Both the position numbers and the translations under genes were made by a program. Of a stretch of DNA of 38,644 nucleotides, positions 21,324 through 25,291 are shown one piece after another. Source of the DNA: a virus; the IMG/VR virus record IMGVR_UViG_3300010296_000020, positions 1 through 38,644 of that record. One strand, 5' to 3'. Positions within the stretch are counted from its first letter, which is position 1. Each line of letters starts with the position of its first letter. The notes beneath the pieces were generated by a model that saw nothing but the letters and a program-made list of their open reading frames with translations, searched no databases and was not told the DNA's origin.

Positions 21324-21403
21324 CGCTTATTATTATATATTAACTAATATATATTAAATAATATACTAAATTAAATAATATGTATTATATATTTACTATT
21401 TAA
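21324..21403. promoter_or_regulatory. Divergent, extremely AT-rich promoter region
   Basis: Eighty bases separate the start of the minus tail operon (21323) and the start of a plus-strand gene (21404). The spacer is more than 90 percent A/T and made of repeated TATAT, TAAATA and TTAAATAAT words. On the minus strand TATATAATA occurs twice, once just before the tail-operon ATG. These resemble -10 elements and, loosely, the T4 late promoter word TATAAATA, but an exact match is absent. No -35 TTGACA-like element is evident. It must hold the promoter for the tail run unless readthrough from upstream crosses the plus-strand genes. The role is inferred from position and composition. Confidence 0.6.
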
Positions 21404-23457: not shown

Positions 23458-24397
23458 AATAGTAAGGGGGCGATATGATGCTCTCGTTGAGCAGGTTATA
23501 CTTTACGGTTGCCCTGTAAGTTCCAGTAAGTCCTCCAAAGTCTGCGACTCTGGGATGTGTTGCCAAGGTTGTCGTGTCGAATCTAAATAATATTGTATTG
23601 TCTGAAGTTATGTCCATAACGGACTGAGTATCAGCGAAGCTGGAAACTACCACTGTGGCTGGAAGTGTGGTGGAATCCTCGTTGACCTTCTCTATTTGCA
23701 TCATTGCACTAGTGATAGCGGAGTCCTTAAAAATGTTCTTCACGCTGCTATCTATGTCTTTGTTTTGAATGGTGATCTCAGTGGTGACGGTCATGTTCTC
23801 TATAGAACTTAGGGTAACATGTTTGTTCAGTAACTTGTTCCTTGTCTTGAGAAGTAGTGGCTGAGTTATCGTGAAGAACGTGTCATCGTACAGGTGGAAA
23901 TCACTGATTAACGTCTGATAGTCTGAGCCTTCTGCAAATTTAATGGTCCAGCAGTCGATGTAATCGTTTACCGCGCTCGCCGCATTTTCCACAACTAGCG
24001 AGGATCCATAGAAGTTATAGATTCCTGCGGTGTTTTGAGTCCCATCAAGAACAACCATATACTCTCCTTGTTGTACTCGGTAGACGCCGCTGGTTGATCT
24101 AATGTCAGTCCCTGGGTTATAGCCACTAGGATCCTGAGCAGGTGTACCTCCATCGTTTCCTGACGGAGTGAAATGCATTTGAATGATGTCCCCAGGTATA
24201 CTAGAAACTAGTACGTTATCAGTTGCTAGAAGGCTACTCGGAGTAAAGTTAGAAGCCTTTTGAAAAATAGTTACACCACTGATGTCATAAGGGTCGTAAT
24301 ACTGACCGTCATTGATGAAGAACGCCCTCAGGGCGACCTTCTGAATCACAGTGGGTCTGTTATGCCTATCAACTACCTGAGTTCCGTTTAATTGCAT
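23444..24397 (-). CDS. Beta-rich structural protein of unknown function
   Basis: The protein has 317 residues from the ATG at 24397, which lies inside the 3' end of the chaperone -1 frame (29-base overlap). GGAG lies about 10 bases upstream. The composition (Thr/Ser/Val-rich, few charged clusters) and strand-like pattern suggest a beta-sandwich virion protein. The final segment TYRATVKYNLLNESIISPPYYFTIS resembles the last strands of an Ig-like or tail-tube-like fold. There is no catalytic motif, membrane span or signal peptide. Proximity to the gp26/gp51-type chaperone suggests a tail or baseplate role, but this is inference and no family is recognised. Confidence 0.7.
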   Translation of the reverse strand: MQLNGTQVVDRHNRPTVIQKVALRAFFINDGQYYDPYDISGVTIFQKASNFTPSSLLATDNVLVSSIPGDIIQMHFTPSGNDGGTPAQDPSGYNPGTDIRSTSGVYRVQQGEYMVVLDGTQNTAGIYNFYGSSLVVENAASAVNDYIDCWTIKFAEGSDYQTLISDFHLYDDTFFTITQPLLLKTRNKLLNKHVTLSSIENMTVTTEITIQNKDIDSSVKNIFKDSAITSAMMQIEKVNEDSTTLPATVVVSSFADTQSVMDITSDNTILFRFDTTTLATHPRVADFGGLTGTYRATVKYNLLNESIISPPYYFTIS

Positions 24398-24560
24398 CGC
24401 TTTCTCTCTCCAAGTCCTCTTTAAGAAGTTTTATGAATATGGTCCTCTCCATGCGAGTCATACCCTTTACATCCGCATAAGTGAACCTAGCTCGTTTTAC
24501 AAGTATATAGGCTTCTAGAAGAAGATTGTCTACATCAATTACTTCTTCTAGTTCACATCG
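24369..24560 (-). CDS. -1 frame extension of the tail chaperone gene (63 codons), reached by ribosomal frameshifting
   Basis: The -1 frame is open from the slippery run to a stop at 24369-24371 and adds 63 residues: RCELEEVIDVDNLLLEAY onward, then LVKRARFTYADVKG, MTRMERTIFIKLLKED and an Arg/Ser-rich end. There is no ATG, GTG or TTG in this frame between the slippery site and an internal Met only 30 codons from the end. Starts in the same frame upstream (GTG 24617, ATG 24608) lack a ribosome site and lie deep in the zero-frame gene. The helix with LVK, a Y-x-D-V step, then M..ER..F resembles the C-terminal segment that, as I recall, ends T4 gp51-type and other chaperone proteins. The frameshifted fusion would have about 307 residues. 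Confidence 0.75.
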   Translation of the reverse strand, partial: RCELEEVIDVDNLLLEAYILVKRARFTYADVKGMTRMERTIFIKLLKEDLERESDAIKRNSGS

Positions 24561-24569
24561 AAAAAATTT
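24515..24569 (-). promoter_or_regulatory. Programmed -1 ribosomal frameshift signal
   Basis: Reading the minus strand, the zero frame is GCA AAT TTT TTC. It contains two overlapping canonical slippery heptamers, A AAT TTT (24569-24563) and T TTT TTC (24566-24560). Eight bases later begins CTAGAAGAAG (24551-24542), which pairs perfectly with CTTCTTCTAG (24524-24515) across a 17-base loop. Inside the loop ATTG and CAAT can add four more pairs. The zero-frame stop TAG (24550-24548) lies within the 5' arm. Slippery site, 8-base spacer and stable stem match known -1 frameshift elements of tail-assembly chaperone genes. Confidence 0.8.
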
Positions 24570-25291
24570 GCATCTATTGGTAGGTCTACAATAGACACCC
24601 CTCCACATTCGTTGCACTGGAACTTGACCTTAGTATCAACGCCGTAGTCGCTCTTAATAGCGTTTAGGATAGTTCTGACATCCTTTAGAGGTAACTTGTC
24701 TATTACAGGGGCAATGATGGACTTGTCAGTATGACCAGCAAGCTCGACCACGAATCTCCATAGCTGATCTAGGGCAGTCTGGGTATCCGACATCATTCTC
24801 TCATCTCTAACCCTAGGCAATCTCACCTTTGCTTCCTTCTTTAGAGTGGGCAACATGACAGTTACTGGGTCTGCAAAATCATCAGGAACTGGGTTTATGT
24901 TGAGCGTGGAGAGTTTTACCGTCGTGGGGTTTTCCGCCTTGCAATGGGTGCAGACTAGCAGAGTGTTGTAGTCATCTCCGTAGGAGATTTCTCTAAGCTT
25001 CATGATCATGTAGAGCTTATCCATTGAGAGGAGGTCTGGAATTTTTATATTAGTGGCACACCTCTGTAAAATCATGTTGACGGGATCCTCAGTCTTCTTA
25101 GCACTCACTAAAGCTTTTTCATCCTCGAAGGTCATGGGCCTTAGGGTTATAGGTGCCCCTGGATCTTCCAAAGCGTACACTCTGTTTTCTGAGGGAAGCT
25201 CCAACTCTATAGCGGTATCTGAAGGAAGATCTTTTAAAAGGTCTTCGATAACCTCCTGCTTGGCAGGATCATTTACTTGATTGTTCAGCAT
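24548..25291 (-). CDS. Tail/baseplate hub assembly chaperone, gp26/gp51-like, zero-frame product
   Basis: The protein has 247 residues. The ATG at 25291 is preceded by AGGAG with a 7-base gap, one of the best ribosome sites in the window. Two Cys pairs, C114-x2-C117 (VCTHC) and C226-x2-C229 (FQCNEC), form a probable zinc ribbon. The N-terminal part has a PITLRPMTFEDEKAL pattern common in T4-like baseplate assembly proteins. T4 gp51 (249 residues) and gp26 (208) are the likely relatives; I cannot decide between them. These proteins help hub assembly and are not, or only scarcely, found in the virion. The gene ends in a frameshift signal, so two products are expected, as for lambda gpG/gpGT. 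It is divergent from the UvsW-like gene. Confidence 0.75.
   Translation of the reverse strand: MLNNQVNDPAKQEVIEDLLKDLPSDTAIELELPSENRVYALEDPGAPITLRPMTFEDEKALVSAKKTEDPVNMILQRCATNIKIPDLLSMDKLYMIMKLREISYGDDYNTLLVCTHCKAENPTTVKLSTLNINPVPDDFADPVTVMLPTLKKEAKVRLPRVRDERMMSDTQTALDQLWRFVVELAGHTDKSIIAPVIDKLPLKDVRTILNAIKSDYGVDTKVKFQCNECGGVSIVDLPIDANFFDVN

Follow-up and report, generated by a model that had tools for sequence, protein, structure and literature searches.

Lambda is a siphovirus in which the slippery site of the chaperone (TAC) gene is G GGA AAG, and amongst the T4-like phages frameshifting was reportedly found by Vladimirov et al. in 2022 to be conserved in several groups, with T4 using genes 26 and 51. 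In the portions of the published sources considered here, lambda is described as making a short form, gpG, and a rare −1 extended form, gpGT, the shift lying near the 3′ end of the gene (PMC5009743), and the same 2016 paper describes TAC frameshifting as widely conserved 'except T4'. Within the equivalent portions of two later papers, Vladimirov, Gautam and Davidson (Virology 2022) are credited with poly-T −1 slippery sequences in T4-like TAC-N genes (PMC12846349), and Vladimirov et al. with some T4-like phages that have one short and one long gene and no frameshifting (PMC10885494). For T4 itself, the hub assembly chaperones listed include gp26 and gp51, the latter being needed for assembly and not present in the finished particle (PMC3004832, in excerpt). 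In phage Adele and the Vandenendeviridae a −1 shift has been proposed at a T-rich site at the TAC-N 3′ end, with the downstream part annotated separately (PMC12846349, in excerpt).

Here we analysed a 38,644-nucleotide stretch of viral DNA (positions 1 to 38,644 of IMG/VR record IMGVR_UViG_3300010296_000020, hereafter the window). The reading that we favour, at a probability of roughly 0.93, is that it carries the TAC gene of an uncultivated T4-supergroup phage, in which a minority −1 slip on T TTT TTC would give a 247-aa TAC-N and a 307-aa TAC-NC with a role like that of lambda G/GT. The heptamer differs from the G GGA AAG of lambda, and the Adele and Vandenendeviridae TAC, from another phage family, differs in having a GTTTTT motif (PMC12846349, in excerpt). 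With the T4-like TACs credited to Vladimirov et al., as summarised in the same excerpt, the window shares short and long chaperone forms and poly-T −1 sites, and it differs from them in belonging to an uncultivated group that is <60% identical to all 15 matching phage records. The initial annotation had proposed that such a frameshift might be new for the gp26/gp51 class. This proposal fails, since the excerpt of PMC12846349 already credits Vladimirov et al. with poly-T −1 sites in T4-like TAC-N genes and the class has therefore been described. What appears to be new here is a clean, deeply conserved uncultivated group within that class. In the open literature surveyed, frameshifting in gp26/gp51 genes was described only by citation of Vladimirov et al., and a search of the literature for 'baseplate hub assembly catalyst' together with frameshifting found no paper.

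Layout and identity of the chaperone gene

The zero-frame gene, TAC-N, occupies positions 25291-24548 on the minus strand, encodes a 247-aa protein of the T4 gp26/gp51 type (PF12322) and ends in GCA AAT TTT TTC GAT GTG AAC TAG. As first described, two overlapping in-phase slippery heptamers lie at this end (24569-24560, minus strand): T TTT TTC (24566-24560), which we regard as the main shift site, and A AAT TTT (24569-24563), which would be accessory at most. The −1-frame extension, TAC-C, spans 24560-24372 on the minus strand with its stop at 24371-24369, and translation bore out both its 63 open codons and the 307-residue joined product, in which a −1 slip at T TTT TTC joins the zero frame to those 63 residues and the stop ends at 24369. 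The next gene on this strand (24397-23444, 317 aa), whose ATG overlaps the TAC-C end, had no convincing family match amongst Pfam and PHROG profiles.

Relatives of the zero-frame protein were retrieved from 65 viral contigs, at 99% to 36% identity. These gave 57 distinct sequences, the window included, and 44 after thinning at 90% protein identity. The chaperone gene is a marine-type phage gene and its surroundings are consistent with a phage of T4 type, with a portal (phrog_213), a DNA helicase (phrog_16), a terminase and a gp53-like protein. Upstream of it, at the divergent helicase gene, lies the nearly palindromic CTATTATAG (25330-25322, minus strand), which is possibly a shared promoter: 35 of the 43 thinned sequences for which upstream DNA is available carry it no more than 120 nt upstream. 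Elsewhere in the window, a gap between divergent genes at 21324-21403 is 91% A+T and contains three TATATA sites.

The zero-frame protein matched Pfam PF12322 (T4_baseplate) over residues 37-244 with 61.8 bits, the cut-off being 24.5, and phrog_150 (baseplate hub) at E 6.5e-23. The segment 24372-24563 matched phrog_634 ('baseplate hub assembly catalyst') at E 0.001, whilst the −1 part itself gave a weak match to the C-terminal end of phrog_150 (E 0.15) and nothing credible in Pfam. An AlphaFold2 model of the zero-frame protein, made from 39 sequences, had a mean pLDDT of 87.8, and the best two of 313 PDB chains compared with it, both matching over residues 24-104, were YqbN, which we take to be a TAC relative (Z 6.3, 76 residues aligned, rmsd 3.4), and the TAC of HK97 (72 residues aligned with an rmsd of 3.2, Z 6.0), followed by a PICI-element protein (Z 3.8) and zinc-ribbon proteins (Z at most 2.9). 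The modelled N-terminal domain would thus resemble the TAC fold with moderate confidence, a Z of about 6 being moderate and a likeness of fold being silent on function. Searched with Foldseek, the model had no match in the PDB at E up to 0.001, and amongst predicted structures it had strong matches to viral proteins, many of them named baseplate hub, with SP-15 first. Four cysteines arranged as two CxxC pairs (C114 and C117, C226 and C229) are invariant in the 39 sequences and, together with the zinc-ribbon matches, suggest a predicted metal-binding knuckle. Separately, a search of PDB sequences with the TAC-N profile returned six matches, all to glutamate receptor delta-2 and with E values of at least 0.023, which we judged to be due to chance. 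The gp26/gp51-type identity originally assigned to the gene is borne out by PF12322, phrog_150, conservation and the fold.

Conservation of the slippery site and the −1 extension

Every one of the 65 relatives has T TTT TTY in phase together with a homologous extension in the −1 frame, the heptamer being TTTTTTC in 51 and TTTTTTT in 14. It starts 10-25 nt ahead of the zero-frame stop, most often 16 nt (60 of the 65), and the −1 continuation past that stop is 52-62 codons long. We take T TTT TTY to be the conserved signal because A AAT TTT is present in just 51 of the 65. Since the relatives share kinship, we assign no probability to the conservation of the site, and the argument is one of synonymous positions, scored in the 44 thinned sequences. 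Synonymous identity was 1.00 at both the first slippery Phe codon (946 pairs) and the preceding Asn codon (616 pairs) and 0.62 at the second slippery Phe codon, with a background mean of 0.45 over 237 scored columns. Two further columns reached at least 0.9, a Gly lying twelve columns before the first Phe (0.95) and the Val just ahead of the stop (1.00), the latter presumably because the overlapping −1 frame fixes the same bases. Other canonical in-phase heptamers occurred in the same genes at 86 per about 10,000 codon positions.

The freezing of the slippery codons at synonymous positions argues against a sequencing indel or a decayed gene, an explanation that would draw on the general knowledge that homopolymer runs are error-prone. 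The frame relation is also identical in 65 of 65 relatives, none of which has one continuous frame without a slippery run, it is kept in two contigs that come from other samples and encode a 99% identical protein, and the −1 part is under constraint; the probability that we attach to an indel or decay is negligible. Slippage of RNA polymerase on the T run would produce mixed mRNAs, some encoding the fusion, and the run is indeed 6 to 8 T long, with 7 in nine and 8 in five of the 65 relatives. The remaining 51 have T6 only, which is short for transcriptional slippage, and slippage of this kind requires neither a fixed codon phase nor a T at the third position of differing codons. The codon ahead of the two Phe codons ends in T in all 44 thinned sequences and encodes N in 35, D in 7, S in 1 and G in 1; ribosomal slippage would account both for this T and for the fixed phase, and we consider polymerase slippage extremely unlikely.

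TAC-C could be aligned in all 57 distinct sequences, with 0.37, 0.24 and 0.51 differences per site at codon positions 1, 2 and 3, and stops close both alternative frames within it in 44 of 44 thinned sequences. Its last codons are constrained at synonymous sites too, probably because they overlap the start of the next gene. TAC-C might instead be a separate protein, made from its own start or by translational coupling, and public records annotate it in this way: in those of S-H9-2, C48C1, Mosig and S-SSM5 the −1 continuation is a small gene by itself ('baseplate hub assembly catalyst', gp51) and not part of a joined CDS. The open −1 frame of the window does contain two start codons, the ATG of 24608 and the GTG of 24617, but neither has an SD-like match, and the claim that the frame has no usable start is correct in effect. 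Amongst the 57 distinct sequences the window shares this ATG only with the near-identical L002 and L003, and no independent −1-frame start is conserved: 38 of the 57 have no ATG, GTG or TTG ahead of TAC-C codon 18, and of the −1-frame starts listed only that of L063 has an SD-like match. A separate protein would, in addition, leave the frozen in-phase heptamer unexplained, and we regard this alternative as very unlikely.

The −1 frameshift is supported, then, by the conservation of the slippery site, the synonymous freeze and the −1 extension in every relative. Under this frameshift reading the majority of ribosomes would halt at the TAG and release the 247-aa TAC-N, whilst a minority would slip one base back on T TTT TTC, the Phe tRNAs re-pairing on TTT TTT, and would so bypass the stop and add 63 residues to give the 307-aa TAC-NC. 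If lambda G/GT is a guide, abundant TAC-N and scarce TAC-NC would then coat the tape measure protein, with the TAC-C domain recruiting tail tube subunits; production of the fusion, the TAC-N/TAC-NC ratio and this role are inferred. A TAC gene typically lies just ahead of the tape measure gene. Here the likely tape measure gene would, as a guess, be the ORF at 20937-19153, which had no significant family match amongst Pfam and PHROG profiles; it starts 3.4 kb beyond the TAC-C end of that strand, separated from it by further genes and not adjacent, a point against the favoured reading.

Sequence 3′ of the shift site

The initial annotation had also placed a stem behind the heptamer, and its geometry was described correctly. 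A perfect 10-bp stem with a 17-nt loop follows an 8-nt spacer (24559-24552), its 5′ arm CTAGAAGAAG (24551-24542, minus strand) holding the zero-frame TAG and its 3′ arm being CTTCTTCTAG (24524-24515, minus strand); with four additional loop pairs the fold has an energy of −13.3 kcal/mol. The evidence for the stem is weaker than had been implied, since a fold as good was reached by 3 of 200 dinucleotide shuffles when the piece was 56 nt long, by 32 at 76 nt and by 11 at 111 nt, and comparison of the window hairpin energy with peptide-preserving recodings gave p = 0.21. When the peptide-preserving null was applied to the site in all 44 thinned sequences, p was ≤0.05 in 10 and z was below 0 in 32, with a mean of −0.80 (Wilcoxon p 0.0002). 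An upstream control stretch was near neutral (mean −0.28, z < 0 in 22 of 44), and a control stretch later in TAC-C had an equal or stronger bias (mean −1.02, z < 0 in 38 of 44); the folding bias is therefore not specific to the site. RNAalifold returned no consensus structure in 27 sequences, and the pair counts gave no covariation support for either arm (82.6% paired vs 82.4% in shuffles), sliding the stem arms lowering the paired fraction to 45-57%. On the grounds of the absent consensus, the absent covariation and the equal control bias we rejected the hairpin as a conserved stimulator, and its conservation amongst the relatives was not upheld. It does occur in close relatives, the tests giving no support for conservation beyond the encoded peptide, and lineage-specific stems are possible.

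A frozen stretch within TAC-C, GAAGCCTATATA (24515-24504, minus strand), comprises codons 16-19 (GAA GCC TAT ATA); its first base is the last base of the stem and it lies about 45 nt 3′ of the slippery site. Over the 44 thinned sequences GAA was used for 37 of 37 Glu, GCC for 39 of 42 Ala, TAT for 42 of 44 Tyr and ATA for 41 of 41 Ile, and the codons flanking the element had synonymous identities of 0.62 and 0.28. Counted from the heptamer start, GCCTATATA begins at 54 nt in 37 of the 44 thinned sequences and in 57 of the 65 loci. In the window, no opposite-strand reading frame of at least 60 aa covers GAAGCCTATATA. As regards the idea of a late promoter, the counts do not suggest a motif that recurs widely: the window contains a single GCCTATATA (0.31 expected), and CCTATATA occurs 54 times vs 30 expected over the sequences counted, a large share of these being the element itself. 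The 44 sequences contain no exact reverse complement of GCCTATATA, and hence no exact long-range pairing partner was seen.

Relatives in phages and cyanophages

Amongst 50,697 phage records the zero-frame protein matched the 15 referred to above (E up to 0.01, all <60% identity), and gp26 of the cyanophage S-H9-2 matched 707. We examined 18 records, comprising 11 of the 15 window matches, 6 of the 707 S-H9-2 matches and T4, and placed their continuations in the TAC-C family by eye. Of the 18, 11 combine a canonical T TTT TTY and a −1 continuation (S-H9-2, XacN1, LR756511, RAS14, C48C1, AG-345-E15, Mosig, V09, PhiW-14, S-SSM5 and OC). In seven of these the heptamer lies 7-10 nt ahead of the stop, and in the other four (Mosig, XacN1, RAS14 and LR756511) 31-70 nt ahead of it. 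The continuation of phiMAM1 is likewise in the −1 frame, but no canonical heptamer goes with it. The continuation lies in the +1 frame in five of the 18 (LIS04, SP-15, GXN1, Slickus01 and LR756508), and a homologous C-terminal part in that frame is also found in four contigs (the set being L068, L069, L072, L073, L075 and L166-L169), implying that these groups may shift by +1 or −2. Scans of viral contigs found one locus with the SP-15 query (the SP-15 copy, 100%) and four with the Slickus01 query, and the +1-frame groups are thus thinly sampled. No joined-CDS flag was found at the chaperone gene in the annotated records inspected, three inspected records being without annotation.

The −1 part had originally been likened to the C-terminus of T4 gp51, a likeness that is supported only through cyanophage intermediates and is weak in direct comparison. 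In searches of 17 T4 proteins, with E-values set for 300, the window-family −1 profile reached gp51 at E 1.7, whilst the cyanophage −1-part profile reached gp51 at E 9.4e-6, with its best stretch at residues 211-243, and did not hit gp26 (E 16); L142, whose −1 part is 16 residues only as the stored locus ends there, was excluded from the cyanophage profile. Of the 56 distinct cyanophage −1 parts, the window-family profile in turn listed 46 with E values no higher than 10, the best being 6e-8, and hhalign of the two profiles gave a probability of 89% and E 2.3e-6, in a one-target comparison. T4 gp51 resembles the window in consisting of PF12322 (residues 1-201) and a C-terminal TAC-C piece, and T4 differs in having two separate, divergently transcribed genes, with gp51 holding both parts in a single frame. 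Most probably, therefore, gp51 is the long form of the chaperone in T4 and gp26 the short one.

In the cyanophage-type loci, T TTT TTC stands 10 nt before the stop in 80 of 80 amongst the matches listed (80 of 597 confirmed). Just 5′ of this heptamer, an SD-like element of the GAGGG/GGAGG type is seen in the cyanophage set (L086-L165). Of 71 distinct cyanophage-type genes, 26 have an SD-like 5-mer in the 21 nt or so that precede the heptamer, as against 51 of 1865 control windows, and GGG accounts for 28/71 Gly codons in that stretch vs 8% elsewhere; in the window's group such a 5-mer precedes the heptamer in 1 of 44. The frameshift stimulator of dnaX is likewise SD-like, and the cyanophage element, a possible stimulator of the shift, resembles it.

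A broader and rather unlikely reading, offered tentatively, is that all of these belong to one family in which recoding has been rewired several times, many members shifting −1 on T TTT TTY, the SP-15-like and Slickus01-like groups and a few others shifting +1 or −2, and T4 using two genes. Stimulators would then differ as well, part of the cyanophage-type genes having the SD-like 5′ element and the window's group the frozen GAAGCCTATATA on the 3′ side, perhaps a frameshift signal of a new type. The favoured reading, a minority −1 slip in the TAC gene of the window, would add an uncultivated, deeply conserved group to the frameshifted chaperones of T4-type phages. It also suggests that the short 'baseplate hub assembly catalyst' genes of cyanophage records are the second half of a fusion and not separate genes. 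With −1, +1-frame and split-gene members, the family would be a good system in which to study how phages set a fixed chaperone ratio and evolve it anew.
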